From Nonlabens arenilitoris (GTDB lineage: Bacteria > Bacteroidota > Bacteroidia > Flavobacteriales > Flavobacteriaceae), in the NCBI RefSeq assembly GCF_002954765.1, contig NZ_MTPW01000001.1, positions 1,191,501 to 1,255,500 of the forward strand: a stretch of DNA of 64,000 bases, in the 5' to 3' direction. Position 1 is the first letter of the stretch; each line of letters begins with the position of its first letter. Below the pieces are notes generated by a model. It worked only from the letters and a program-made list of their open reading frames with translations. It was not told the DNA's origin and did no database searches. Made by a program: the position numbers and the translations under genes. Below are positions 44,179 through 56,629 of the stretch, piece after piece.

Positions 44179-44820
44179 ATGAGCATTAAAAGACATCTTA
44201 TTGATCCATCGGTAGGTAGCAAAGGCTATTTCCCTATTAATTTATCTGTTGTGAATTCATTTTGGGATAAAAATGATGTAAGTGATATCTCAGTGTTTGA
44301 AAAATATCTAGCAGAAAAACGAGATGAACATCAATCTTATGTTGCTCATGGTGGTTATCTAGAACAACGCGCCTTATATCGCAAAAACGCACGTTTTCAA
44401 ACAGGCATCACTCGAGATGTACATATGGGAATAGATTTATGGGCTCCAGCTGGCACTAGTGTTCATGCCGTAATGGATGGTGTTATTCACTCTTTTGCAC
44501 ATAATGATGATGCTGGCAATTACGGTCCTACCATAATTTTAGAACATGACTGGAATGGCCAGAAAATCTACAGTCTATATGGACACTTATCCCTTAGTGA
44601 TATGGCAGGTTGGGAAGTTGGATTCCGCTTTCGCGAAAGCGAGAAAATAGCAACTCTGGGAACTCCACATGAAAATGGTGGTTACTCGCCACATCTACAC
44701 TTTCAGGTAATGACAGATATGAGAGATTATCGTGGCGATTTCCCTGGTGTTGCTGCACAAGAAGAGTTAGCGAGTTATGAAAATATGATTCTAGATCCTA
44801 ATCCGTTTATTTTTAACTAA
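44179..44820 (+). CDS. M23-family peptidase
   Basis: 213 residues from ATG 44179 (MSIKRHLIDPSVGSKGY); the open frame reaches 44095 without a plausible signal. The catalytic set is complete: DVHMGIDLWAP (His, Asp), YGHLSLSD and HLHFQV. No signal peptide is visible, which is odd for a wall hydrolase; a cytosolic substrate or an unrecognised export route is possible. The palindrome at 44626 is read Arg-Phe-Arg-Glu-Ser. It lies 20 bp before dprA. Confidence 0.8.
   Translation: MSIKRHLIDPSVGSKGYFPINLSVVNSFWDKNDVSDISVFEKYLAEKRDEHQSYVAHGGYLEQRALYRKNARFQTGITRDVHMGIDLWAPAGTSVHAVMDGVIHSFAHNDDAGNYGPTIILEHDWNGQKIYSLYGHLSLSDMAGWEVGFRFRESEKIATLGTPHENGGYSPHLHFQVMTDMRDYRGDFPGVAAQEELASYENMILDPNPFIFN
44626..44641. 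repeat. Iterated palindrome, copy 11
   Basis: CGCTTTCGCGAAAGCG in the M23 gene, read as Arg-Phe-Arg-Glu-Ser. It is the last copy before the 11.9-kb gap over the accessory island. Confidence 0.9.
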
Positions 44821-44840: not shown

Positions 44841-45935
44841 ATGGATCACCAAGAATTACGTTCTATTCTCGCGCTTAAAAAAGCACCTCTTATAGGTGAT
44901 ATCATGGCCAAAAAGTTGATCAGAACCTTTGGTAGTGCGACGGCGGTTTTTGAACAATCGATACGAGAAATAGCCGCAATTGAAGGAATAGGCGATAAGA
45001 AAGCACAGTTTATAAAGGCTACAGATTTATTTACCAAGGCCGATAAAGAACTGGAATACGTCCATAAAGAAGGAATCACCACCAGAATATACTATGAAGA
45101 CAATTATCCTGAACGCCTACAATACTGCGTGGATGGGCCGATTGTTTATTTTGAAAAAGGAAATATAGACTGGAACAATCCCTATACCTTAAGTATAGTA
45201 GGAACACGTCAGATCACCTCAACTGGTGCGGCTTTTCTTGAGAAATTCATAGAAGAAATTGCTCCGTTAAAACCTCTTATTATTAGTGGTTATGCTTATG
45301 GTGTTGATATTCTTGCACATCAACTGGCTATTAAATATGGTTTACAAACTGTGGCAGTAGTCGCCCATGGACTGAATCAAACTTACCCGAGAAACCACGA
45401 AGCTTATAATGAGCAAATGATAGCAAACGGTGGTTTTGTAACGGACTTTTGGCACACAGCTACCTTTGACAGAAAAAATTTTCTGGGTCGTAATCGCATT
45501 ATCGCTGGATTGAGTGAGGCAACGGTTGTTATAGAAAGTGCTGCAAAAGGTGGCTCACTGGTTACCGCAGATCTCGCTGCTGGTTATAATCGTGAAGTTT
45601 TTGCTGTACCAGGTCGTGTAAATGATAAGTATTCTATAGGTTGTAATGAGCTCATCAAACAGTCCAAAGCTCATTTACTCACCAAAGCGGCTGATATCCC
45701 ATACATTCTAGGCTGGAAAGAGCGTAATACCGGTGTGCAAAAACAGCTTTTTGTAGAACTCAATGAGGACGAAAAATTGATTTACCGCTACTTAAAAAAG
45801 AACGAAAAAGAACTCTTAGATATCATTGCCATAAACATTAATAAGCCAGTTCATCAAGTAGCTTCTTTATTAATGAGTATGGAACTTAAAGGTGTGATAA
45901 AACCACTGCCTGGGAAGATGTTTATGTTGGTGTGA
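44841..45935 (+). CDS. dprA: DNA processing protein DprA
   Basis: Loads RecA on incoming single-stranded DNA during natural transformation. 364 residues: N-terminal HhH-like region (FEQSIREIAAIEGIGDKKAQF), Rossmann core (SIVGTRQIT, SGYAYGVDILAH, GLNQTYPRNH, FLGRNRIIAG, ESAAKGGSLVTADLAAGYNREVFAVPG), and a C-terminal winged helix. Its last ~34 codons occur again, diverged but in frame, at 46591-46691, so the 3' end marks the left edge of an accessory island. Confidence 0.96.
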   Translation: MDHQELRSILALKKAPLIGDIMAKKLIRTFGSATAVFEQSIREIAAIEGIGDKKAQFIKATDLFTKADKELEYVHKEGITTRIYYEDNYPERLQYCVDGPIVYFEKGNIDWNNPYTLSIVGTRQITSTGAAFLEKFIEEIAPLKPLIISGYAYGVDILAHQLAIKYGLQTVAVVAHGLNQTYPRNHEAYNEQMIANGGFVTDFWHTATFDRKNFLGRNRIIAGLSEATVVIESAAKGGSLVTADLAAGYNREVFAVPGRVNDKYSIGCNELIKQSKAHLLTKAADIPYILGWKERNTGVQKQLFVELNEDEKLIYRYLKKNEKELLDIIAININKPVHQVASLLMSMELKGVIKPLPGKMFMLV

Positions 45936-45938
45936 TAT

Positions 45939-46544
45939 TTAAACTTTATTGAGAATAAGCATTGCTCCGTTGGGCAAATAATCAGCTGTAGAAGTACATT
46001 GAGAATTATTAGGCAATGGGTCGCTTGTAATTCCCTGTGGTGAACCTTGAGTTATTATAACCTGCAATTCTGTTTTAGATGCGCCAACAACACTCCAATT
46101 TTGTTGAGGCACCTCAGGTTTTACATAAATCTTTCGAGTATTACCGCATGCATCGTGTAGGTTCAAGCCGAAATATCCATCTAAATGGTATAAAATACCA
46201 TGAAACTCAGACAAACCAGATTGAGCTGAGCTCACCACTATATTACCATTAGAATCTTTAATGTCATATTTGATGTTTATAAAATCTTCTTCGATATTAC
46301 TGTAAGAATTATAAACTCTCGCTTTATAAATTCGAAAAACTATTGTGTTTCCATTATAGATACCAGTCCAATTTCCGACAAAAGAATCTAACGTATTATT
46401 CAAATCATGTATTTTAGTAACCTCTTGAGGTAAGTCTAACTTATTGTCCGAATAATAAGCGGCTTGTTCCAAAGAGAGAATGTCTTGAGCATTTGACAAT
46501 ATTGAGACAAAAAGGAATGCTATTGTTATTTTAAACTTCATCAT
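45939..46544 (-). CDS. Small secreted protein of a DUF6705-like family (island)
   Basis: 201 residues with a signal peptide (MMKFKITIAFLFVSILSNAQ). The core NNTLDSFVGNWTGIYNGNTIVFRIYK matches NNRLDPFVGTFTGIYAGKIYTF in the 49542 protein and NNELDSFEGTWLF in the 50169 protein, so all three are one family (the name DUF6705 is from memory). It lies between dprA and the displaced dprA 3' end, so it probably came in with the newest dprA end. Partner or immunity role is inferred from the other family members. Confidence 0.65.
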   Translation of the reverse strand: MMKFKITIAFLFVSILSNAQDILSLEQAAYYSDNKLDLPQEVTKIHDLNNTLDSFVGNWTGIYNGNTIVFRIYKARVYNSYSNIEEDFINIKYDIKDSNGNIVVSSAQSGLSEFHGILYHLDGYFGLNLHDACGNTRKIYVKPEVPQQNWSVVGASKTELQVIITQGSPQGITSDPLPNNSQCTSTADYLPNGAMLILNKV

Positions 46545-46590
46545 GGCATTTATTAAAAGAGAATGAAAAAGTACTAATTAGATATAGTTC

Positions 46591-46691
46591 ACATTAACAA
46601 ACCAGTCCATTTAGTTGCTTCTTTATTAATGAGTATGGAATTTAAAGGTGTGATTAAATCATTGCCTGGGAAATTGTTTATGCTGGCATGA
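46591..46691 (+). pseudogene. Displaced 3' end of dprA
   Basis: About 85% identical at DNA level to the last 101 bases of dprA (45835-45935). It still reads as the DprA C-terminus (NKPVHLVASLLMSMEFKGVI...FMLA, stop) with mostly synonymous or conservative changes. It is a relic of a different dprA allele, not a random repeat. Confidence 0.9.
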
Positions 46692-46692
46692 T

Positions 46693-47208
46693 TTAGTTAT
46701 AATATTCGTACTCAATTAATGAAACTTCGTTATTAATTTCACTAAAACTAATTCTAATAACTTCTGAACCCAACTTGTATACTATTCTTTTAGTGCCATC
46801 ACTATAAGTTAATATACTTGGATTTCCTAGCAAGGATATATTATCACCGACTTTTATATAAATACCATTAATGAAAAGACTTTTGGAATTATCAAATAAT
46901 TTAATATTTGTTAATTGATAATCTTGAATGTTATTAGGAGTAAGAAATTGTTCTCCATCTTGAAATAATAAATAAATTGAATTAGATTCATACTCTTTCC
47001 AATGCCCTGGATCTTCTCCTGAATTAATGTTAAATGAAACAGGAATTAGCGATTGAATGGTCGTAGTGTTCCCTTTTGAATTTATTATGTCAGTTAGCAA
47101 AACATTATCAAACCTTATAGTGTTATAAACTGATTCAGGTAAATCATTGGTTTGACAACTTACTGAAGTTGTGTAAATAGAAATTAATATTAGAACTAAA
47201 TTTTTCAT
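46693..47208 (-). CDS. Small secreted protein behind the M23-type modular lipoprotein (candidate partner/immunity)
   Basis: 171 residues with signal MKNLVLILISIYTTSVSCQ (possible lipid Cys18). The mature part is beta-rich (LTNIKLFDNSKSLFINGIYIKVG, RIVYKLGSEVIRISFSEI). No known family. It starts 9 nt after the stop of the modular lipoprotein whose C-terminal domain is an M23 peptidase, and its export puts it where that enzyme would act. The immunity role is inference from position. Confidence 0.6.
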   Translation of the reverse strand: MKNLVLILISIYTTSVSCQTNDLPESVYNTIRFDNVLLTDIINSKGNTTTIQSLIPVSFNINSGEDPGHWKEYESNSIYLLFQDGEQFLTPNNIQDYQLTNIKLFDNSKSLFINGIYIKVGDNISLLGNPSILTYSDGTKRIVYKLGSEVIRISFSEINNEVSLIEYEYYN

Positions 47209-47217
47209 GTTTAAGTA

Positions 47218-48921
47218 TTAATCACAACCAGAAGTAGTTACCTCTCCTGTCGTGTTGTTAAAAATTGTTTTGAAATAATTTAATGGGTCGACAGCACTAT
47301 AACTTGATGTGCCATTTTGTTTTAATTTGACTTTAATATGAACATGAGACTCCGTAGTTCCTTCATCTATTCCATTTTGTAAATTACCTGAATTACTTTG
47401 ATATCCAATAATATCTCCAGCTTTCACATCTCCAGTAACCCTTGTGTTTTCAGCTAAGTGGAAGTACATTGTTTTGATCTTGTCGTCACCATAGTCTGAA
47501 GTTATAATAACATAATAACCAGCGCCCGAAGTTTGTGTTGCTAAACTTGCAGTACCATCGAACATCGCGTACACGGCATTTCCTTGTGCATTTGCAATAT
47601 CCATTCCTCCATGTTTTTGTGTATTACAAGAAGGGACTCCTCTAGTTTTACCATACATGCCACCTTTTTTACCGCAAACTGTTAATTGTTCCTGTATTTC
47701 TGGGTTTAACACAGGATCTCCATGGTCACAATCACTACAAGGTTTAGTTGAATCGTAGTCTTTATTGGTTGGACTATTTCCTTTAGGACAATCCAAATAT
47801 TCAATTGGGTAATAAAAAGCCAATGCTGTTGTACCATCATTTTTAACATAACTACGTTCCTCTTTTTCACCGCTAACATTAACTTCACTATCACTATCTA
47901 TCTTACCGGTATCACAATTGGTCTCATCAATAATTTCTCCATTTTCATTTCTAAAGTTATCTTGACTTGAGGTTGTGTTGTCACCAATTGTCGCAGTACT
48001 ATTTGTAAAAGCACTCTCGTGAAGATATCCAGTTTTATACTCACAGTCTTCAGGAATGCACTCACATTTTTCTGGATCTAACTTCTCATTATTCTGACAC
48101 ACCAAATAGCAATCGTCATCATCAACAGGATCCAGCGCATCACCATCATTAGGAGTGGTTCCTATTTCATCGGGTTCTCCTGAATCATTTCGGTCTGTAG
48201 GACCACTACCGCCAGGATTATCATCGGTACCAAATGGGTCATGACTCGTTCTACCACCACTTTGACATCTGGTAACCCAGCCACCGGTGCAGGTTCTCGT
48301 TGCTCCATTTGAAGTTCCCCACCATCTAGTACATGTGGCTCCTTGAGAAACAGTATGCTTATCCCTACCTTTACAAGTAGTCTCTACACATGTTTCCTGC
48401 CAGCTGGTAACTGCAATCTCATTCCAACCACATCCATTTACATCATTTTTATAGAGTCTATTACCTGCATAATTTCTAGCCATGGCGTTATTAATATCAT
48501 AAATACCGTCTTGTAGGACTGGATAATCAATCGTAAACTGATATAATGTACTATCGTTATAGACGGTCAACACATAATTTTTCAGCACTTGTTGTCTTTC
48601 TAAACTGTCCTGAACTACTTGAAAAGTATAAGATTTATAAAAATCACTTTCTAGCAGTTGTATTCTACTCGTATCAATTTGAATGCCATAGCCCGTTGAA
48701 TCCGCACTCTTATTTTGGTACCCTAATATATCTTGAGTGTTTTGAGCAATAAGAGAAGATTGTTTCAAAGTCTCATAAGAAACAATATTCATTTTTAAAT
48801 TATGACCAACTGTCTTCTGAAGAATAGGTAAATCTTCATCCTTCTCACAAGAAGTAACAGCAATCAATGAAAACAAAAGCAAACCAATAATGGTAAAAAT
48901 TGAAGAATTCTTCCTGAACAT
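47218..48921 (-). CDS. Modular surface lipoprotein with C-terminal M23 peptidase domain (protein A)
   Basis: 567 residues. Lipobox LIAVTSC (Cys25) is followed by EKDED, close to the K-(D/E)2 surface-export signal of flavobacterial lipoproteins. Residues 1-264 are nearly identical to protein B (52808-54346): a beta-rich part (YKSYTFQVVQDSLERQQVL), a Cys-rich part (CVETTCKG, CTRWWG, RTCTGGWVTRC), and the linker DPFGTDDNPGGSGPTDRNDS. After the GALD-like junction (here GDALD) the proteins differ. Here residues 265-567 include a further Cys-rich stretch and an M23 domain with all ligands (KHGGMD, YFHLAE, HVHIKV). It ends VTTSGCD. Probably a contact-dependent cell-wall toxin or surface hydrolase. 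Confidence 0.7.
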   Translation of the reverse strand: MFRKNSSIFTIIGLLLFSLIAVTSCEKDEDLPILQKTVGHNLKMNIVSYETLKQSSLIAQNTQDILGYQNKSADSTGYGIQIDTSRIQLLESDFYKSYTFQVVQDSLERQQVLKNYVLTVYNDSTLYQFTIDYPVLQDGIYDINNAMARNYAGNRLYKNDVNGCGWNEIAVTSWQETCVETTCKGRDKHTVSQGATCTRWWGTSNGATRTCTGGWVTRCQSGGRTSHDPFGTDDNPGGSGPTDRNDSGEPDEIGTTPNDGDALDPVDDDDCYLVCQNNEKLDPEKCECIPEDCEYKTGYLHESAFTNSTATIGDNTTSSQDNFRNENGEIIDETNCDTGKIDSDSEVNVSGEKEERSYVKNDGTTALAFYYPIEYLDCPKGNSPTNKDYDSTKPCSDCDHGDPVLNPEIQEQLTVCGKKGGMYGKTRGVPSCNTQKHGGMDIANAQGNAVYAMFDGTASLATQTSGAGYYVIITSDYGDDKIKTMYFHLAENTRVTGDVKAGDIIGYQSNSGNLQNGIDEGTTESHVHIKVKLKQNGTSSYSAVDPLNYFKTIFNNTTGEVTTSGCD

Positions 48922-49345
48922 ACATAATAAATTTAATCATTAAATAGTCATCAAGGATTTGATACCATTTAACTGTTCTACTATGTATTCATCATGGGGA
49001 ACTCAAATCTAGTTCAAATTATGTAAGAAAAAAAAGCTAGTTAACATTGTTTTGACTTTTATACCATATAACAAATGTTCCTTACCTGTTTAAAATTAGT
49101 CGAATTACAAAAACAATATCGCCAAATGTTATCGCTTTATAAAGAGAAATTCCTGAAAAGTAAATTGCCTCACTTTGCCAATAATGACAGTATTTAATCA
49201 GTTGGTTTGTTTATTAAAATCCCAACTTCTCCCTAACACGTTTCAATGTAGCATTTGCGATTAAGGTAGCTTTTACAGCACCTGCTTCTAGAGCAGCATC
49301 AATCTCGTACTTGTTTTCCATAACGTGGTTGTAGCGTTCTCTAAT
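48131..49345 (-). repeat. Long direct repeat, copy 1 (partner 53556-54766)
   Basis: Covers the 5' 790 bases of the protein A gene, about 290 bp of upstream region, and a trpS 3' fragment. The second copy lies 5.42 kb to the right in the same orientation. The gene part is nearly identical; the upstream region and trpS part are more diverged. Nothing else, and no other gene, is seen in 48922-49213. Confidence 0.9.
49214..49345 (-). pseudogene. Displaced 3' end of trpS
   Basis: In-frame copy of the last ~43 codons of trpS plus stop (IRERYNHVMENKYEIDAALE...REKLGF), compared with REKLGY in the intact gene. Changes are mainly synonymous or conservative, so this is an old allele's end. It is fused at about 49345 to a fragment of a JAMM-like cassette. 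Confidence 0.9.
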
Positions 49346-49500
49346 ATTAATTATAAGTGCATATACGGAACCATCATCATTAACAATCATTTAAAAAACA
49401 CCTTCTTGAAAATCTTCATTGGTCTCCTGATAATAATTTCTTAATATTCTTAAAACATTCCAAGAGAACATAGGGTAAATTCGTACTGGATGTGTGTTAC
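49345..49500 (-). pseudogene. Degraded fragment of a JAMM-like C-terminal cassette
   Basis: Similar to 51052-51205 of the orphan cassette (reads NTHPVRIYPMFSWNVLRI where the orphan has HTHPAGTYPMFSWNDMRV). The first His and the Asp of the metal motif are lost and the frame is closed by stops. It abuts the trpS fragment with only 1-3 bases of shared sequence at the joint. Confidence 0.8.
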
Positions 49501-49541
49501 AATATATTAAAGTGTAAACAATAAGCTGAATATTACTCCAA

Positions 49542-50144
49542 TTAAATTCTAGTAAGAACAAAATGTTCATTTGTGGGGAAAATATGTGGGCTTGCTCCAT
49601 TAGGACATTCATCGTTAGTTAACAATTCTCTAGCTGGATCCAGATAAACGGTAAGTTGGTTAGGTGTTATAGTAGGTAGATTAGTAGTATCAGAAAGCAC
49701 CATAGAAAAAGTACCTGCTTGTGCACATCCATCGAAGCCAACATAGGTTGCTGTATAAAAACCTTCAGATGTGAATCGTTGTCCAGTGATATCATAAGAC
49801 TTATCTGGTATATTCAATGTTTGAGCTAAACTGACCCCATTGGAGTCTTCTATTTTATATTTAATATTTAATACATCTATTGCGACTCCATCAGAAGGGT
49901 CTTTATATTTTGAAATAACAAAAGTATAAATTTTGCCAGCATAGATTCCTGTAAAAGTACCGACGAAAGGGTCTAATCTGTTATTAACGTCTTTAATGTA
50001 AGTGATATCATCTGGAATGCTAGATCCATCATCATCAGCATAAATAGTGAACGTATCTAAGCTCATAATTACATCTTGAGCCTTCAATGGATTTGTATAA
50101 ATAGTCAAAATTAATATGAGTATTGAAATAATTTTAATTTTCAT
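49542..50144 (-). CDS. Small secreted protein, DUF6705-like (island)
   Basis: 200 residues with a signal peptide (MKIKIISILILILTIYTNPLKAQ). Core NNRLDPFVGTFTGIYAGKIYTF as in the 45939 gene. It follows the 50169 gene by 24 nt, forming a pair behind the orphan JAMM cassette. Function unknown; candidate immunity or partner protein by position. Confidence 0.65.
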   Translation of the reverse strand: MKIKIISILILILTIYTNPLKAQDVIMSLDTFTIYADDDGSSIPDDITYIKDVNNRLDPFVGTFTGIYAGKIYTFVISKYKDPSDGVAIDVLNIKYKIEDSNGVSLAQTLNIPDKSYDITGQRFTSEGFYTATYVGFDGCAQAGTFSMVLSDTTNLPTITPNQLTVYLDPARELLTNDECPNGASPHIFPTNEHFVLTRI

Positions 50145-50168
50145 AAAATAAAACTTAGCACAACTGAT

Positions 50169-50780
50169 TTACTGTTTAAACATAACATACTCACCTTGCC
50201 ATGGTAAATCAGGATCACTAATTACGCGGTCCGCAGGACCACTAGGGTTAGTAAGGCCGAACCCGATATATGCTTTAAGTGCATCTTGTCCGTTAATGAC
50301 TCGATGTTTTAATATCATTTCCCCATAATGTTCGTTAGAATTAGGATCCATAAAACTAACTCTTAATCTTAACTCACCTGTATTACAATCATTTAAAGGA
50401 ATATAAAAACAATCCCTTAAAATGGAATTTCCATAAATCTCATGTCTTGAAAACGATGGTTGTAGTATAGTGTCATTTAGCCTTATCAAAGTATTAACTA
50501 TTTCTACACCGTTTTTAATATATTGATATTCACCTCTTATACGATCTTCATAATAACTACCATTATAATACATAACCTCTTTTTCTAATACTATTTTTAA
50601 GGAATTGTTACCATCTGTAAAAAGCCAAGTGCCTTCGAAACTATCTAACTCATTATTATTATCTTTATAATAAGCATTATCTATATTTCTAAAACCTTGA
50701 TCTTGTAGTGTTAAAACGGGTTGTTGTGCGTAATTATAAAAGTGTACGAGCGTTATTAAAAGAGTTATTATGTATTTCAT
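50169..50780 (-). CDS. Small secreted protein, DUF6705-like, directly behind orphan cassette (candidate immunity)
   Basis: 203 residues with a signal peptide (MKYIITLLITLVHFYNYAQ). NNELDSFEGTWLFTDGNNSLKIVL marks it as the same family as 45939 and 49542, though more diverged. It begins 10 nt after the stop of the orphan cassette, the same layout as the small gene behind protein A. Immunity role inferred. Confidence 0.65.
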   Translation of the reverse strand: MKYIITLLITLVHFYNYAQQPVLTLQDQGFRNIDNAYYKDNNNELDSFEGTWLFTDGNNSLKIVLEKEVMYYNGSYYEDRIRGEYQYIKNGVEIVNTLIRLNDTILQPSFSRHEIYGNSILRDCFYIPLNDCNTGELRLRVSFMDPNSNEHYGEMILKHRVINGQDALKAYIGFGLTNPSGPADRVISDPDLPWQGEYVMFKQ

Positions 50781-50790
50781 AATGATTAAT

Positions 50791-51615
50791 TTACTTACAA
50801 GTAGTAGACACTACTTGATCTTTATTATTATTTAATTCTAACAGATTCCAATTCGATAAATTTTGATCGGCAGCCTCATAAAGTGTTGCCCCATAAGATT
50901 CAAAGAATTTTAAAAAGGTTAATTCTAGATTACTATTTTGAGCATAATCTTTTCTTAAATTTTCATTTAAAAAATCTATTTTTTCTTGAGTTGTAGATCC
51001 TTTTGCGTTGCTAAGATCATATTCAATAGCAACATTTAAAGTTTGTGAATCATTAATCTTAAGCGCATATACTGTACCATCATTATTAACAATCATTAAA
51101 AAGACATCTTCTTGAAAATCTTCGTTAGCATCTTCAAAATAATTTCTTAAAACTCTCATATCATTCCAAGAGAACATAGGGTAAGTTCCAGCTGGATGTG
51201 TGTGTGCTTGTCCAAACCACCTATTACCTGTGGTAGCATAAGAACTAGTAAGCTTGGTACCTTCTCTAATTCCTAATGGATCTAATTTATTATAAATATT
51301 GCCAAATATCTTTTCTTTAACAAAACTGGCAGAGTATTCTTTATCTAAGCCTGTTTTTAATCTTAAACTATCTATTATTGGTTTTATGTTTAAACTTAGA
51401 GTATCTGTTTTAGTTAGCTTGTTTAGAGTTCGACAATTTTTCTTGTCAATATCTTCTTTAACTTGTTCCAGCGCACCACCATCATTAGGAGTGGTTCCTA
51501 TTTCATCGGGTTCTCCTGAATCATTTGGGTCTGTAGGACCACTACCGCCAGGATTATCATCGGTACCAAATGGGTCGCTAGATGTTCTGCCTCCACCGCT
51601 GCTGAACTTAGTTAC
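50791..51615 (-). pseudogene. Orphan C-terminal cassette: linker plus JAMM-like domain, lacking the lipoprotein N-terminus
   Basis: A 275-codon frame that begins after a TAG at 51616-51618 and contains the shared linker (SSDPFGTDDNPGGSGPTDPN), the junction GALE, then a domain with AHTHPAGTYPMFSWNDM. This fits the JAMM/MPN+ pattern H-x-H-(8)-S-x-x-D, followed by VFLMIVNNDGTVYALKI as in that fold. It ends VVSTTCK. Upstream, to about 51662, are only scraps of the Cys-rich N-terminal region, with the Trp of CTGGW replaced by stop. A shorter protein could start at Met 51177, which would remove the HxH. Probably a stored, silent module. Confidence 0.75.
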
Positions 51616-51702
51616 CTAACGACCTGTACAAGTTCCATTAGCGTCATTCATAATTATTGAACAACAATTACATCTATTGCCTGTAGAGATTCAATAGTTG
51701 AA

Positions 51703-52242
51703 TTAATTGATCTTATCCAGTACTAAATCTGTAGGGAATAAAGTGCCTTGCTTATCTACAAACGATTTTAAACTCGTAATCTTAAAATGCATTTTATAGC
51801 CACAACTAAGGCAGTCTTTGTAAATACGTAATTCTAAACTTCTAGGATCCCATAAACGTCTATTATCCACATCACCTCGAGTTACACCAAAATCTCTGAA
51901 CCTTCCATAAGAAGTCCTACCTTCAATCATATCTTGCGGCTCAGACATTCCTATAACTATTGCTGGAGAAAAAGGCCCATTAGGAATACTATAAAGACTG
52001 GAGTCATAAATCAGCTGATCTATATTTCCTGCAGCATCTTTAGTATATTTTTTAAAACCACCTCTTCCGTATCCTAATTCTAGACTGTCTATAGTGATGG
52101 AAATATATTCATTTGTGCCTACCTGTGTTTCCCAAGTGCCTAATAAATTAGTGTCTAAGACTCTTTTTGATTCAAAAGATTGTGCCTGCACAATCGTGGT
52201 GTTTAAAAAGATTAAGCAGAAAATGTAATGTATTAATCGCAT
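51703..52242 (-). CDS. Small secreted protein, tandem copy 2 (candidate immunity)
   Basis: 179 residues with a signal peptide (MRLIHYIFCLIFLNTTIVQAQ); the core LLGTWETQVGTNEYISITIDSL is lipocalin-like or DUF-type in flavour. It is a near-identical tandem copy of the 52278 gene with a 575-bp period. Its upstream bases retain the last codons of protein B, showing that the unit duplicated was the toxin end plus partner gene. The differences (for example ELGYGRGGF against VVGHGTGSF) suggest diversification of specificity. Confidence 0.7.
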   Translation of the reverse strand: MRLIHYIFCLIFLNTTIVQAQSFESKRVLDTNLLGTWETQVGTNEYISITIDSLELGYGRGGFKKYTKDAAGNIDQLIYDSSLYSIPNGPFSPAIVIGMSEPQDMIEGRTSYGRFRDFGVTRGDVDNRRLWDPRSLELRIYKDCLSCGYKMHFKITSLKSFVDKQGTLFPTDLVLDKIN

Positions 52243-52259
52243 GATGTTTCAGTTATTTT
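52233..52259 (-). pseudogene. Relic of the protein B C-terminus
   Basis: Reads KITETSCD and stop, the same ending as protein B (52808). It is left upstream of the second small-gene copy by the tandem duplication. Confidence 0.8.
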
Positions 52260-52277
52260 CTCATATTCTAAACACCA

Positions 52278-52817
52278 TTAATTGATCTTATCCAGTACTA
52301 AATCTGTAGGGAATAATGTACCTAAATCATCTACAAATAGTTTTAACGATGTAATCTTAAAATGCATTTTATAGCCACAACTAAAGCAGTCTTTGTAAAT
52401 ACGTAGTTCGCTAAATCTAGAATCCCATAAACGTCTATTATCCACATCACCTCGAGTTACACCATAATCTCTGATCTCACCATAAGAAGTCCTACCTTCA
52501 ATCATATCTTGCGGCTCAGACATCGCTATAGCTATAGCTGTAGGGAAAGGCCCGTTAGGAATACTGTAAAGACTGGAGTCATAAATCACCTGATCTATAT
52601 TTCCTACAGCATCTTTAGTGTATTTTTTAAAACTACCTGTCCCATGACCTACTACGAGACTGTCTATAGTGATGGAAATATATTCATTTGTGCCTACTTG
52701 TGTTTCCCAAGTGCCTAATAAATTAGTATCTAAGACTCTTTTTGATTCAAAAGATTGTGCCTGCACAATCGTGGTGTTTAAAAAGATTAAGCAGAAAATG
52801 TAATGTATTAATCGCAT
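52278..52817 (-). CDS. Small secreted protein coupled to protein B (candidate immunity)
   Basis: 179 residues with the same signal peptide as its tandem copy. Its ATG lies inside the end of the protein B gene: the last codons TGC GAT TAA of B overlap ATG CGA TTA of this gene in another frame, a 10-nt overlap. Such coupling is typical of toxin-immunity pairs. Contains a Cys pair in KDCFSCGYKMHF. Family unknown. Confidence 0.7.
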   Translation of the reverse strand: MRLIHYIFCLIFLNTTIVQAQSFESKRVLDTNLLGTWETQVGTNEYISITIDSLVVGHGTGSFKKYTKDAVGNIDQVIYDSSLYSIPNGPFPTAIAIAMSEPQDMIEGRTSYGEIRDYGVTRGDVDNRRLWDSRFSELRIYKDCFSCGYKMHFKITSLKLFVDDLGTLFPTDLVLDKIN

Positions 52818-54346
52818 GATGTTTCAGTTATATTGTTAGAGGTTGCGTTGTAAGTTAATTTTTTAAAGTTATTGAAATTTTTATCGGTCTTGAAAAGCGT
52901 AATTCCCATATCAGTTTCATTTAAAAATTTCATAAATTGTTTTAACTGCACTTTTGGGTCAGTTTCTGTATGGGTAATTAACGCATCAGTTCCTGCCCAA
53001 TATTTGTAAGTTGTGAATAAATAAGTGGTACTATAACTATTTATAAGTGTATTATGTGCCGTTGTTTGAGCAGTAGTAGATCCAGTAGGTAAATTATAAG
53101 GGAATTTAGTATTAAAATAAGCTCTAAATTTATTTAGATCATCAATGGTGAGAGCAAAATGCTGTCCATCATCTCCATGGTGTGTCGATAAAAAAGCCGT
53201 AAAACTTCCTGAATCTATTTTATCGTTTGATAGTTGTTTGGCAAATGCACTTAAATCGTCAAAAGAAAATACCGCTAGTGTCCCTATAGAATCGTTATTA
53301 TGCACATGAGCATAAGAGGTATAATTACTTGACGGGTTTGCATTCATGCTGTTACTGGCTGTTCCTGCTGCGCCACCACGTCGTTCTAAATTCATATCAT
53401 CTTTAAACATCCCATAAGATATCTCGCCTGTATATATTTTAACAGAATCTGCCATTTGTCTTAATTTATTTTTGAACTTTGCAGTGGTAGAAGTAGAATC
53501 TGTTGCTTTTAAGTTGTTTGCGATTTTTTTACATTCCGGATCTGTTTCCACAACATCCAGCGCACCACCATCATTAGGTGTAGTACCTATTTCATCGGGT
53601 TCTCCTGAATCATTTCGGTCTGTAGGACCACTACCGCCAGGATTATCATCGGTACCAAATGGGTCATGACTCGTTCCACCACCGCTTTGACATCTAGTAA
53701 CCCAGCCACCAGTGCAGGTTCTCGTTGCTCCATTTGAAGTTCCCCACCATCTAGTACATGTGGCTCCTTGAGAAACAGTATGCTTCCCCATACCTTTACA
53801 AGTAGTCTCTACACATGTTTCTCGCCAGCTGGTAACTGCAATCTCATTCCAACCACATCCATTTACATCATTTTTATAGAGTCTATTACCTGCATAATTT
53901 CTAGCCATGGCGTTATTAATATCATAAATACCATCTTGTAGGACTGGATAATCAATCGTAAACTGATATAATGTACTATCGTTATAGACGGTCAACACAT
54001 AATTTTTCAGCACTTGTTGTCTTTCTAAACTGTCCTGAACTACTTGAAAAGTATAAGATTTATAAAAATCACTTTCTAGCACTTGAATTCTACTCGTATC
54101 AATTTGAATGCCATAGCCCGTTGAATCCGCACTCTTATTTCTGTACCCGAATAGGCCTTGAGTGTTTTGAGTAATAAGAGAAGATTGTTTCAAAGTCTCA
54201 TAAGAAACAATATTCATTTTTAAATTATGACCAACTGTCTTCTGAAGAATACGTAAATCATCATCCTTCTCACAAGAAGTAACAGCAATCAATGAAAACA
54301 AAAGCAAACCAATAATGGTAAAAATTGAAGAATTCTTCCTGAACAT
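52808..54346 (-). CDS. Modular surface lipoprotein with C-terminal JAMM-like domain (protein B)
   Basis: 512 residues. Residues 1-264 are nearly identical to protein A (lipid Cys25 followed by EKDDD, YKSYTFQVVQDS, Cys-rich block, linker DPFGTDDNPGGSGPTDRNDS). After GALD the domain is different: TSYAHVHNNDSIGTLAVFSFDDLSAF fits an H-x-H-(n)-S-x-x-D JAMM-like motif, followed by FTAFLSTHHGDDGQHFALTI, parallel to the orphan cassette. It ends ITETSCD. Two tandem small secreted genes follow, the first overlapping its stop. Likely a secreted or surface effector with exchangeable C-terminus; the target is unknown. Confidence 0.7.
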   Translation of the reverse strand: MFRKNSSIFTIIGLLLFSLIAVTSCEKDDDLRILQKTVGHNLKMNIVSYETLKQSSLITQNTQGLFGYRNKSADSTGYGIQIDTSRIQVLESDFYKSYTFQVVQDSLERQQVLKNYVLTVYNDSTLYQFTIDYPVLQDGIYDINNAMARNYAGNRLYKNDVNGCGWNEIAVTSWRETCVETTCKGMGKHTVSQGATCTRWWGTSNGATRTCTGGWVTRCQSGGGTSHDPFGTDDNPGGSGPTDRNDSGEPDEIGTTPNDGGALDVVETDPECKKIANNLKATDSTSTTAKFKNKLRQMADSVKIYTGEISYGMFKDDMNLERRGGAAGTASNSMNANPSSNYTSYAHVHNNDSIGTLAVFSFDDLSAFAKQLSNDKIDSGSFTAFLSTHHGDDGQHFALTIDDLNKFRAYFNTKFPYNLPTGSTTAQTTAHNTLINSYSTTYLFTTYKYWAGTDALITHTETDPKVQLKQFMKFLNETDMGITLFKTDKNFNNFKKLTYNATSNNITETSCD

Positions 54347-54766
54347 ACATAATAAATTTAATCATTAAATAGTAATCAAGAATTTGATACCATTTAACTG
54401 TTCTACTATGTATTAATCATGGGGAACTTAAATCTAGTTCAAATTATGTAAGAAAAAAACTAGTTACCATTATTTTAACTTTTATACCATAATAAATGCT
54501 CTTTACCTGTTTAAAATTAGTCGAATTACAAGAACAATATCGCCAAATGTTATCGCTATGTAAAGAGAAATTCCTGAAAAGTAAATTGCCTCACTTAGCT
54601 AATAATGACAGTATTTAATCAGTTGATTTGTTTATTAATATCCCAACTTCTCCCTAACACGTTTCAATGTAGCATTTGCGATTAAGGTAGCTTTTGCAGC
54701 ACCAGCTTCTAAAGCAGCATCAATCTCGTGCTTATTCTCCATAAAGTGATTGTAGCGTTCTCTAAT
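53556..54766 (-). repeat. Long direct repeat, copy 2 (partner 48131-49345)
   Basis: Covers the 5' part of the protein B gene, its 288-bp upstream region (no other gene seen there) and the 3' end of intact trpS. Same orientation as copy 1, 5.42 kb apart. The sharp left edge is at TCCAGCGC (GCGCTGGA in coding sense). Confidence 0.9.
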
Positions 54767-55603
54767 AGGTCCAAATTTTTCTAAAATAGCCTCAAATAGA
54801 GCTTGCTTTGCATGACCATAACCATAATTGCCTGCCGCATAGTTTGCTCTCATTGCTGCAACTTTATCTTCTGTAGCGATTATTTTATACAGTGCAAATA
54901 CATTACAAGTCTCAGTATCCTTAGGTTCTTCTAGTGGCGTACTGTCTGTTTCTATAGACATGACTTGTTTGCGCAACTTCTTATCTGCTAGGAAAATATT
55001 GATATAATTCCCTTTGGACTTACTCATTTTATCACCATCTGTACCAGGTACGAGCATCGTGCTTTCTTGAATTTTACCTTCAGGTTCTATGAGAGTTTCT
55101 CCCATTGCATTATTGAATTTACCAGCTACTTCTCTAGTAATCTCTATATGTTGCAATTGGTCTTTCCCTACAGGTACTACCTGTGCATCATATAATAAAA
55201 TGTCTGCCGCCATAAGCATAGGATAGGTAAATAATCCAGCGTTTACATCCTGTAAGCGGTCTGCTTTATCCTTAAAACTATGCGCTAGAGTTAATCGCTG
55301 ATAAGGAAAGAAACAGTTTAAATACCAGTTCAACTCAGTTACCTGCGGTACATCACTTTGTCTATAAAAAGTAGTCTCATTTATGTCTAGACCACAAGCT
55401 AACCATGCTGCAGCTGTAGAATAAGTGTTTTCTCTTAAAGTCTCGCCGTCTTTAATTTGAGTAAGTGAATGCAAGTCTGCTATAAAAAGAAAAGCATCAT
55501 TTTCTTTTTGTGCAGACATTTCTACAGCTGGTAATATGGCTCCTAATAAGTTTCCTAAATGTGGAGTTCCTGTAGATTGTACACCGGTAAGTATTCTAGT
55601 CAT
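54635..55603 (-). CDS. trpS: Tryptophan--tRNA ligase
   Basis: Class I synthetase, 322 residues from ATG 55603 (MTRILTGVQSTG); the frame is open to 55651 but the promoter lies there. HIGH-type motif is GTPHLGNLLG, KMSKS motif is DKMSKSKGN, with the DILLYDAQVVPVGKDQLQH segment. A second copy of its last 43 codons lies 5.4 kb away at 49214. Its 3' end forms the right edge of the accessory island. Confidence 0.97.
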   Translation of the reverse strand: MTRILTGVQSTGTPHLGNLLGAILPAVEMSAQKENDAFLFIADLHSLTQIKDGETLRENTYSTAAAWLACGLDINETTFYRQSDVPQVTELNWYLNCFFPYQRLTLAHSFKDKADRLQDVNAGLFTYPMLMAADILLYDAQVVPVGKDQLQHIEITREVAGKFNNAMGETLIEPEGKIQESTMLVPGTDGDKMSKSKGNYINIFLADKKLRKQVMSIETDSTPLEEPKDTETCNVFALYKIIATEDKVAAMRANYAAGNYGYGHAKQALFEAILEKFGPIRERYNHFMENKHEIDAALEAGAAKATLIANATLKRVREKLGY

Positions 55604-55621
55604 GGTAAATGTATTGAAATG

Positions 55622-55654
55622 CAAAGGTAAATTACTATCACTATTATGCACAAA
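55622..55654 (-). promoter_or_regulatory. Promoter of trpS
   Basis: On the minus strand TTTG (55654-55651), 21-nt spacer, TACCTTTG (55629-55622), 18 nt before the trpS ATG. A complete Bacteroidota-type promoter. Confidence 0.6.
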
Positions 55655-55885: not shown

Positions 55886-56629
55886 TTGAAATGGTTGCGC
55901 TACATATTGATGCCTTTATACCGTATATGGTTCTATATACTGATGGGAGTTCCTATCATTATACTATTCCCTATACTGGTTGTGTTTACTATTTCAGAAA
56001 AAACTTATCATATCTTTTTTGCTATCGCTCGATTTTGGGCAGCTATAATTATTTACGGTATGGGTTTCTGGCCCAATATTAAACGTGAAGAGCCTATGCA
56101 AAAAGGGCAAAGTTATATGCTGGTAGCAAATCACACCAGCATGACAGATATTATGATCATGTTACTGGTTTCTAAAAACCCGTTTGTTTTTGTAGGTAAA
56201 GCTGAACTGGCCAAGATTCCTATTTTCGGTTTCTTTTATAAGCGCACCTGTATCCTAGTAGATCGCAATAATCCCAGAAGTCGTAAAGCTGTTTTTGATA
56301 GAGCACGCGCTAGACTTTCTACTGGTGTCGGTATTTGTATTTTTCCAGAAGGTGGCGTACCTGATGATATGAGTATTACATTAGACTCATTTAAAGATGG
56401 CGCTTTCAGACTTGCTATCGAGCATGAGATTCCTGTATTACCAGTTACTTTATTTGATAATAAGCAGCGCTTTCCTTTCCATTTCTTCTATGGCGGACCG
56501 GGAAAAATGCGTGCTCTTACTCATAAAGCTATTGATACTGCTGGTATGAACTTAAAGGAAGATAAAATACGCTTTCGCGAAAGCGTGAGAACGATTATCT
56601 TATCATCTCTAGAAAATGATCTTAAATAG
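55886..56629 (+). CDS. plsC: 1-acyl-sn-glycerol-3-phosphate acyltransferase
   Basis: Converts lysophosphatidic acid to phosphatidic acid at the inner membrane. 247 residues, two N-terminal hydrophobic segments, then the acyltransferase motifs VANHTSMTDI (HX4D) and IFPEGGVPDD. The start is TTG at 55886. The palindrome at 56570 is read Arg-Phe-Arg-Glu-Ser close to the C-terminus. Confidence 0.92.
   Translation: MKWLRYILMPLYRIWFYILMGVPIIILFPILVVFTISEKTYHIFFAIARFWAAIIIYGMGFWPNIKREEPMQKGQSYMLVANHTSMTDIMIMLLVSKNPFVFVGKAELAKIPIFGFFYKRTCILVDRNNPRSRKAVFDRARARLSTGVGICIFPEGGVPDDMSITLDSFKDGAFRLAIEHEIPVLPVTLFDNKQRFPFHFFYGGPGKMRALTHKAIDTAGMNLKEDKIRFRESVRTIILSSLENDLK
56570..56585. repeat. Iterated palindrome, copy 12
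   Basis: CGCTTTCGCGAAAGCG near the 3' end of plsC, read as Arg-Phe-Arg-Glu-Ser. Confidence 0.9.

Follow-up and report, generated by a model that had tools for sequence, protein, structure and literature searches.

A candidate polymorphic toxin-immunity array on a lipoprotein carrier between dprA and trpS of Nonlabens arenilitoris

What is the role of a chromosomal island in which two lipoproteins begin almost alike, end in unrelated domains and are each followed by a small protein with a signal peptide? This arrangement lies between dprA and trpS of Nonlabens arenilitoris (Flavobacteriaceae), in a stretch of 64,000 nucleotides (nt) from assembly GCF_002954765.1 (contig NZ_MTPW01000001.1, positions 1,191,501 to 1,255,500), hereafter the window, whose own numbering is used below. 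An original prediction, made from the letters of the sequence, had seen in it the layout of a polymorphic toxin/immunity system, and our analysis bears this out: the island is very probably a polymorphic toxin-immunity array built on a lipoprotein carrier predicted to sit outside the outer membrane, with interchangeable C-terminal enzymes and likely immunity genes downstream. We favour this reading because one constant front bears many ends, the neighbouring gene tracks the type of end, an end and its neighbour are shared between genomes as one block, orphan modules are found and many carriers bear an export signal. Judged from the sequences, the general hallmarks of polymorphic toxins (a conserved front with many ends, a downstream partner, stand-alone cassettes and recombination) are present, and we regard the carrier as a new carrier class of this known kind.

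The two lipoproteins, carrier 1 and carrier 2, share 248 identities over residues 1-260 (95%) with no significant alignment beyond, so the predicted shared front is real, although it extends to about residue 260, at 95% identity, where an almost exact match up to residue 264 had been described. Their shared part has a ratio of non-synonymous to synonymous substitution rates (dN/dS) of 0.34. At the DNA level the repeat 54767-53547 versus 49346-48122 is 95.3% identical over 1,225 columns and spans the trpS 3' end, the upstream region and the carrier front; so high an identity, 95% along 1.2 kb, is not to be expected by chance. The C-termini are unrelated, as had been claimed: carrier 2 ends in an M23 peptidase domain (52.3 bits against a Pfam cut-off of 28.7) and carrier 1 in a JAMM-like domain with an HxH...SxxD motif. 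The third module had been described as lacking the N-terminal half, and indeed retains only a carrier fragment, the linker. It is open from stop to stop, and along the 110 nt of 51576-51467 it is 98.2% identical to the linker of one carrier and 96.4% to that of the other; directly upstream stands a short carrier remnant ending in TAG. Small signal-peptide genes had been predicted within 10 nt of each module or overlapping it, and the spacing is -10 nt for immA, +9 nt for immC and +10 nt for immB. All island genes lie on the minus strand, as does trpS, with dprA on the plus strand. The order of transcription is trpS, carrier 1 with domain A, immA, immA', module B, immB, immB', the broken module B, the trpS 3' end copy, carrier 2 with its M23 domain, immC, the dprA 3' end copy, immB'' and dprA. 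The features, in the order of their coordinates, are as follows.

44841..45935, plus strand: dprA, flanking gene (open reading frame, ORF; a single match per genome in 23 genus genomes at E 1e-40)
45939..46544, minus strand: immB'', a stand-alone DUF6705-like gene, likely orphan immunity (PF20448, 23.7 bits against a cut-off of 24.4)
46553..46692, minus strand: copy of the dprA 3' end, apparent right scar of an inserted unit (80% to 45936-45792)
46693..47208, minus strand: immC, a lipoprotein that likely gives immunity to the M23 domain and lacks the export signal
47218..48921, minus strand: carrier 2, with anchor, ectodomain and linker as in carrier 1, then the M23 peptidase domain (PF01551, E 6.6e-14)
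47218..48156, minus strand: C-terminal domain C, predicted peptidoglycan-cleaving toxin, one block with immC in relative G019
48922..49213, minus strand: copied upstream region of carrier 2 (DNA repeat)
49214..49346, minus strand: copy of the trpS 3' end, apparent left scar of the inserted unit (repeat with 54767-54635)
49347..49497, minus strand: broken second copy of module B (84% to 51203-51052; frames broken)
49542..50144, minus strand: immB', a second DUF6705 gene (PF20448, 26 bits against a cut-off of 24.4)
50169..50780, minus strand: immB, a DUF6705 gene, likely immunity gene of module B (PF20448, E 1.1e-30, 107.3 bits)
50791..51615, minus strand: displaced C-terminal module B, a carrier linker and a second JAMM-like domain without the carrier front
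51703..52242, minus strand: immA', tandem duplicate of immA (91% in nucleotides over 560 columns; 88% in amino acids)
52278..52817, minus strand: immA, likely immunity gene of carrier 1, with a signal peptide and a 10-nt overlap with carrier 1
52808..54346, minus strand: carrier 1, with lipoprotein anchor (about residues 1-31), ectodomain (about 32-214), linker and C-terminal domain A
52811..53560, minus strand: C-terminal domain A, predicted toxin with a predicted JAMM/MPN-like fold and the JAMM-like HxH...SxxD motif
54347..54634, minus strand: upstream region of carrier 1, a second copy of which precedes carrier 2 (inside the 95.3% repeat)
54635..55651, minus strand: trpS, flanking gene whose 3' end is copied inside the island (ORF; a single match per genome in 23 genus genomes at E 1e-60)

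Searches with the N-terminal part matched 14 of 23 genus genomes and, at E 1e-3, 24 of 397 family genomes, some weakly. A wider profile at E < 1e-8, as a rule with seven candidates scored per genome, matched at least 35 of 395 order genomes and at least 16 of 395 phylum genomes, all of the latter in the same order (Flavobacteriales); genome matches with E above 1e-8, mostly in the signal peptide region, were left uncounted. The genome of the window itself has at least seven carrier matches, three of them of the close type, of which one is broken by TAG. We assembled 89 distinct carrier frames from 93 fetched stretches and the window. Some are truncated by a stop or by the end of a contig, and the intact ones mostly have 450-710 amino acids. 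This set leaves out some strong places (for example G888, G880, G1045, G1046 and the second places of G202 and G772), the loci L076 and L083, which gave no passing carrier frame, and L226, L229 and L223, which hold pieces only. A protein-database profile search with the N-terminal alignment returned 2 short proteins, the length of candidates being tied to that of the query, and a region search with the full carrier returned 7 proteins. Of the 6 loci from a genome-contig scan, L005 and L006 alone align along most of the query; the remaining four reach no further than query residues 1-61, close to the signal peptide, and were not used.

The TAG upstream of module B (51616-51618) and that of the third close carrier copy (L056:5918-5920) fall at the same tryptophan of a conserved CTGxW stretch, for which common ancestry, gene conversion and chance are candidate explanations.

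Grouping by the last 120 amino acids placed 82 of the 89 carriers, the other 7 being too short, in 31 groups at E 1e-3 and 41 at E 1e-5, so the front is not tied to one constant C-terminus. The last 120 residues were used because clustering by the last 260, since dropped, chained unlike domains through shared middle parts and put Tae4 carriers into the JAMM group; a first clustering on 35 carriers was likewise superseded. N-termini are at least 75% identical in 31 pairs of carriers; the C-terminal group differs in 26 of these pairs, several of which share a middle part, and is the same in 5; one genome, G874, has 7 carriers in 6 groups. A Pfam scan of 50 carriers (the 2 of the window and 48 further) found a C-terminal match over cut-off in 9: M23 and Tae4 twice each (Tae4 at E 1.2e-23 and 4.4e-17), and GH19, DUF6973, a C39-like peptidase, AHH and DUF4056. 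The AHH carrier (2.6e-6) is followed by Imm11 (2.3e-13), another carrier by an Imm49 match just below the cut-off (1.1e-5), and three zincin-like ends gave weak SprT-like matches. These ends bear on whether the proteins are weapons at all. They could instead be tandemly duplicated surface or periplasmic hydrolases of cell wall or chitin, serving nutrition or self-remodelling, and M23, GH19 and C39 domains are also present in housekeeping enzymes. We hold this to be very improbable: Tae4, AHH with Imm11 and the Imm49-like neighbour occur on the same carrier, the C-terminus is shared with the neighbouring gene as one block, small genes are kept without enzymes, and the neighbour tracks the C-terminal type.

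Two carrier loci show other arrangements. At L059 (5955-6818 and 8690-9553), tandem carriers with near-identical 287-residue fronts each stop just short of a separate downstream toxin-like frame (6 and 30 nt away), so that front and end seem to have come apart at one common point. At L251 (G146), two carriers within 10 kb have N-termini 93% identical, a long shared middle part and different last 120 residues; their downstream genes have no evident signal peptide, which suggests that these toxins may be directed to the cytoplasm.

Do the small downstream genes belong to particular ends, as the toxin-immunity layout implies? A same-strand downstream ORF (-80 to +200 nt) is present in 83 of the 89 carriers, and 4 of the 6 misses lie at contig ends. 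A short signal-like ORF follows 60 of the 89, of which 83 have any downstream ORF; among 259 control genes, of which 136 have one, the number is 30. The family of the downstream gene tracks the C-terminal group: 332 of 387 pairs within a group share a downstream family, against 110 of 2616 other pairs (0 of 2000 permutations, the permutation statistics being uncontrolled for genome relatedness). The JAMM-DUF6705 group, the largest, contributes 325 of the 332 sharing pairs; without it, 7 of 36 pairs versus 6 of 1239 share a family (0 of 5000 permutations). With the stricter cut-off (41 groups), 63 of 86 same-group pairs agree against 378 of 2917 others, a shift that arises because the JAMM group splits. 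All 3 M23 carriers among the 89 are followed by a gene of the same group as immC. The predicted linkage of small genes to modules thus holds across the set, and by position and sequence the downstream genes are likely specific immunity genes. An intracellular defence or addiction (toxin-antitoxin) system, for example against phage, would also fit the toxin-antidote layout and the hot-spot location, both of which defence islands share; with signal peptides on the carriers, signal-like starts on 60 of the 83 downstream ORFs and domains of cell-wall type, we find it extremely improbable. Secreted polymorphic toxins with cognate immunity genes remain the preferred reading.

Most of this pairing joins JAMM-like ends to DUF6705 genes. 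In domain A the HxH and D are invariant and the S near-invariant in 14 aligned relatives, and its model (predicted local distance difference test 76, predicted template modelling score 0.79) has JAMM proteins as its best matches, with weak scores; a JAMM/MPN-like fold is predicted on this basis. A domain like that of module B was found, by reading, on an intact carrier in P0003. JAMM-type motif and DUF6705-group neighbour coincide in 28 carriers, with the motif only in 8, the neighbour only in 2 and neither in 45. The 8 motif-only rows comprise 4 M23 or other peptidase-like tails, 1 toxin continuing in the next frame, 2 forming a JAMM-like pair with another partner family, and carrier 1 of the window. 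The DUF6705 group accounts for 30 of the 83 downstream ORFs, 28 of them behind JAMM-motif ends, and by our count 17 of the 28 DUF6705 places found in the genus are at carrier loci. PF20448 (DUF6705) does not match immA or immC; immA is 26-28% identical to genes downstream of two carriers with related C-termini. The DUF6705 profile found no solved relative, and no paper on the family was found in the open-licence literature searched, most subscription papers being outside its reach. DUF6705, so far without an assigned function, looks like a likely immunity family from its sequence context. At L234 (2260-4397, G002), a DUF6705 gene follows a lipoprotein of 505 residues, which has a front unlike those of the collected carriers and may represent a second, diverged type of carrier.

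What, then, is the carrier? In the same 50 carriers the front had no Pfam match over cut-off, there was no match to RHS repeats, filamentous haemagglutinin or VgrG/PAAR, as expected from the claim that the carrier is not built on Rhs, CdiA or type VI secretion system parts, and the N-terminal part had no match over cut-off to MAFB-N/DUF1020 that would place it with MafB. The N-terminal fold gave no convincing structural match and no solved relative (best E 0.044). The informative feature is the lipobox. In Capnocytophaga the optimal lipoprotein export signal is given as C-X-K-(D/E)2-X in PMC5080379, and the window carriers read CEKDD and CEKDE. Our lipobox expression recognised 68 of the 89 carriers, several of the 21 missed having an apparently wrong start or an unusual lipobox. 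The exact C-x-K-(D/E)2 occurs in 24 of these 68, versus 0 of 67 other lipoproteins and 0 of 31 immunity-type lipoproteins; at least two acidic residues at +2 to +6 occur in 50 of 68, versus 17 of 67 and 0 of 31, the background lipoproteins (44, later 67) being drawn only from the fetched loci. With an export signal on many carriers and none on immunity-type lipoproteins, we predict an outward-facing carrier and a partner that remains periplasmic, in support of the proposed surface exposure.

Two described systems offer other routes for such a carrier. PMC8546572 describes the myxobacterial SitA toxins as lipoproteins with conserved N-terminal escort domains in several families and variable C-terminal toxins; an immunity gene shares their operon, single genomes have many alleles, and the toxins act in kin discrimination. 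By analogy, the carriers could be polymorphic toxins that pass as whole lipoproteins between outer membranes through membrane contact or vesicle fusion, and the lipobox cysteine is kept in most of them. The surface export signal argues for display on the outside and the diversity of ectodomains fits recognition, although both are compatible with transfer too; we judge whole-lipoprotein transfer unlikely, yet far from negligible. SitA delivery needs TraA/TraB outer membrane exchange, and the C-termini are described as nucleases in that text; by description and not by sequence, the carrier differs in its host order, its mostly cell-wall type enzymes, its secreted partners and its surface export signal. 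In Bacteroidetes, TANFOR proteins combine a signal peptide, an N-terminal carrier domain, polymorphic C-terminal toxins and immunity genes according to the accessible part of PMC7073777, which proposes them as type IX secretion system (T9SS) substrates. If the carriers were of this type they would be released and not anchored, which we find quite improbable: many have a lipobox and export-type residues, their C-terminus is occupied by the variable domain, and no TANFOR or T9SS tail match is listed for the 2 window carriers and 10 others (TIGR02542 is not among their NCBIfam matches, the presence of the model in the library being unverified). TANFOR proteins are described there as large, with the TIGR02542 domain and often Fn3, in a text that, as far as available, does not use the word lipoprotein, whereas the carriers are mostly lipoproteins of 450-710 residues. 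We therefore retain the reading of an anchored, outward-facing carrier.

By description, the carrier would work like SitA, MafB or TANFOR toxins, with SitA the nearest working analogue as a lipoprotein and TANFOR the nearest described in Bacteroidetes. The consulted part of PMC3482391 further describes MafB, Microscilla-N and Amoebophilus APD1/APD2 with lineage-specific conserved N-termini, very polymorphic C-termini and proposed surface anchoring, and mentions N-terminal domains of Amoebophilus that bear a lipobox and are joined to polymorphic ends. MafB is thought there to use a separate lipoprotein, MafA, whereas the carrier has its own anchor; the APD proteins are described as host-directed effectors deployed in parallel, whereas the carrier has adjacent immunity-type genes; the Microscilla-N and APD N-termini are set apart from the carrier by description only. 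The same part of that source describes Tox-JAB-1, Bacteroidetes toxin domains with conserved E, HxH, S and D, and Imm65, a secreted lipoprotein immunity protein. Tox-JAB-1 is found there on RHS proteins, whereas the domains here sit on a lipoprotein carrier and are usually paired with DUF6705, and Imm65 is likened by description only. No description of this carrier was found in the open-licence literature searched.

How the island was assembled is indicated by the same interval in relatives, where its content varies. Between dprA and trpS, G019 has a single carrier, which ends in M23 and is accompanied by immC and a DUF6705-like gene, and G020 has a JAMM-like-ended carrier, with a front nearly as in G019, and two DUF6705-like genes; at this one locus the N-termini of the two carriers are 97% identical and the C-termini do not match. 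G007 has no carrier and keeps the DUF6705-like gene, immB'' being retained at 94%. The trpS side of the window, G019, G020 and G007 is 96-98% identical. Elsewhere in the genus, dprA and trpS almost touch or overlap in G005, G002 and G006, are about 100 nt apart in G013 (by coordinates only), enclose other genes in G001, G008, G011, G012, G014 and G015, and are not neighbours in nine other genomes.

Compared with the G019 carrier, carrier 2 is identical at 30 of 31 anchor positions and at 46 of 177 ectodomain positions (26%), or 37% over the whole N-terminal part (BLAST), and its C-terminus with immC has 4 mismatches in 1,385 aligned nt. The G019 ectodomain in turn is identical at 136 of 187 positions to that of a G012 carrier at another locus, the anchors agreeing at only 8 of 31. 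Because identities between the G019, G012 and window carriers differ module by module, the anchor, the ectodomain and the toxin-immunity cassette appear to have separate histories, as three separately inherited modules.

Within the island, the broken module B (49497-49346) runs into the trpS-tail copy (49346-49214), and the DNA repeat takes in the trpS tail together with the upstream region and the front of the carrier. The segment 49346-46553, bounded by a trpS tail and a dprA tail, therefore looks like an entire trpS-to-dprA interval that was probably inserted in one piece. Further copies of the dprA 3' end are known: they stand between immunity modules in four close genomes (46553-46692 in the window, and L135, L136 and L137 from the relatives G007, G019 and G020). 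Compared pairwise, five such copies show 81-94% identity (87-94% in 9 of 10 pairs), and against the best six of 23 dprA genes they show 74-85%. Tracing their donor failed, the copies being closer to each other than to any dprA gene, and because of this resemblance they are perhaps one old captured tail that multiplied with the modules.

The palindromic word GCTTTCGCGAAAGC is present to either side of the island (44613-44647 and 56557-56591), in surroundings that resemble each other, and may be a dispersed genomic repeat.

Related genes recur at two further places, beside genes that we read from their sequences as fabD, folA, hemB and a CorC-like gene. Between fabD and folA, G005 has a carrier (L063), as has G012 beside fabD (L062), and G015 (L223) has an orphan C-terminus with DUF6705-type genes. 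Beside hemB or the adjoining CorC-like gene, carriers occur in G000 (L221) and G001 (L071) and a shortened one in G015 (L224). In G006 the fabD-folA locus (L227) holds a DUF6705 gene and a similar neighbour without a carrier, and the hemB/CorC-like locus (L228) such a pair alone; the genus-wide N-terminal search found no carrier match in this genome. From their sequences, both loci of G006 appear to be immunity-only genotypes.

Taken as a mechanism, the carrier would be flipped to the outside of the outer membrane and would present its C-terminal enzyme domain to neighbouring cells. The ectodomain may recognise or dock to the target cell, and the C-terminal domain would then cross the target outer membrane. 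In this island the toxins would attack peptidoglycan (M23) or another periplasmic bond (JAMM-like), while the secreted immunity proteins would remain in the periplasm and block the toxin in kin. Elsewhere, nuclease ends (AHH with Imm11) and partners without a signal peptide mean that those toxins would need to reach the cytoplasm. New cassettes likely come as DNA from relatives, with recombination at the linker, the anchor region or the trpS and dprA tails, and older modules may be left behind as orphans. More tentatively, and with somewhat more doubt than confidence, we propose a three-part surface weapon, with a constant anchor bearing the export signal, an exchangeable ectodomain that would choose the victim and a likewise exchangeable toxin-immunity cassette. 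Recombination at one locus would then let a Flavobacteriales strain change target and warhead independently, and non-producers would keep the antidotes only.

If this is true, a carrier class would be added to the polymorphic toxins, perhaps one that needs only lipoprotein export for display, and the question is raised how a lipid-anchored toxin crosses the outer membrane of a neighbour. DUF6705 gains a testable role as an immunity family. At a single locus, the genomes G007, G019, G020 and that of the window vary in their carrier, their toxin and their orphan immunity genes, and this natural set would offer a ready system for kin discrimination in marine flavobacteria.

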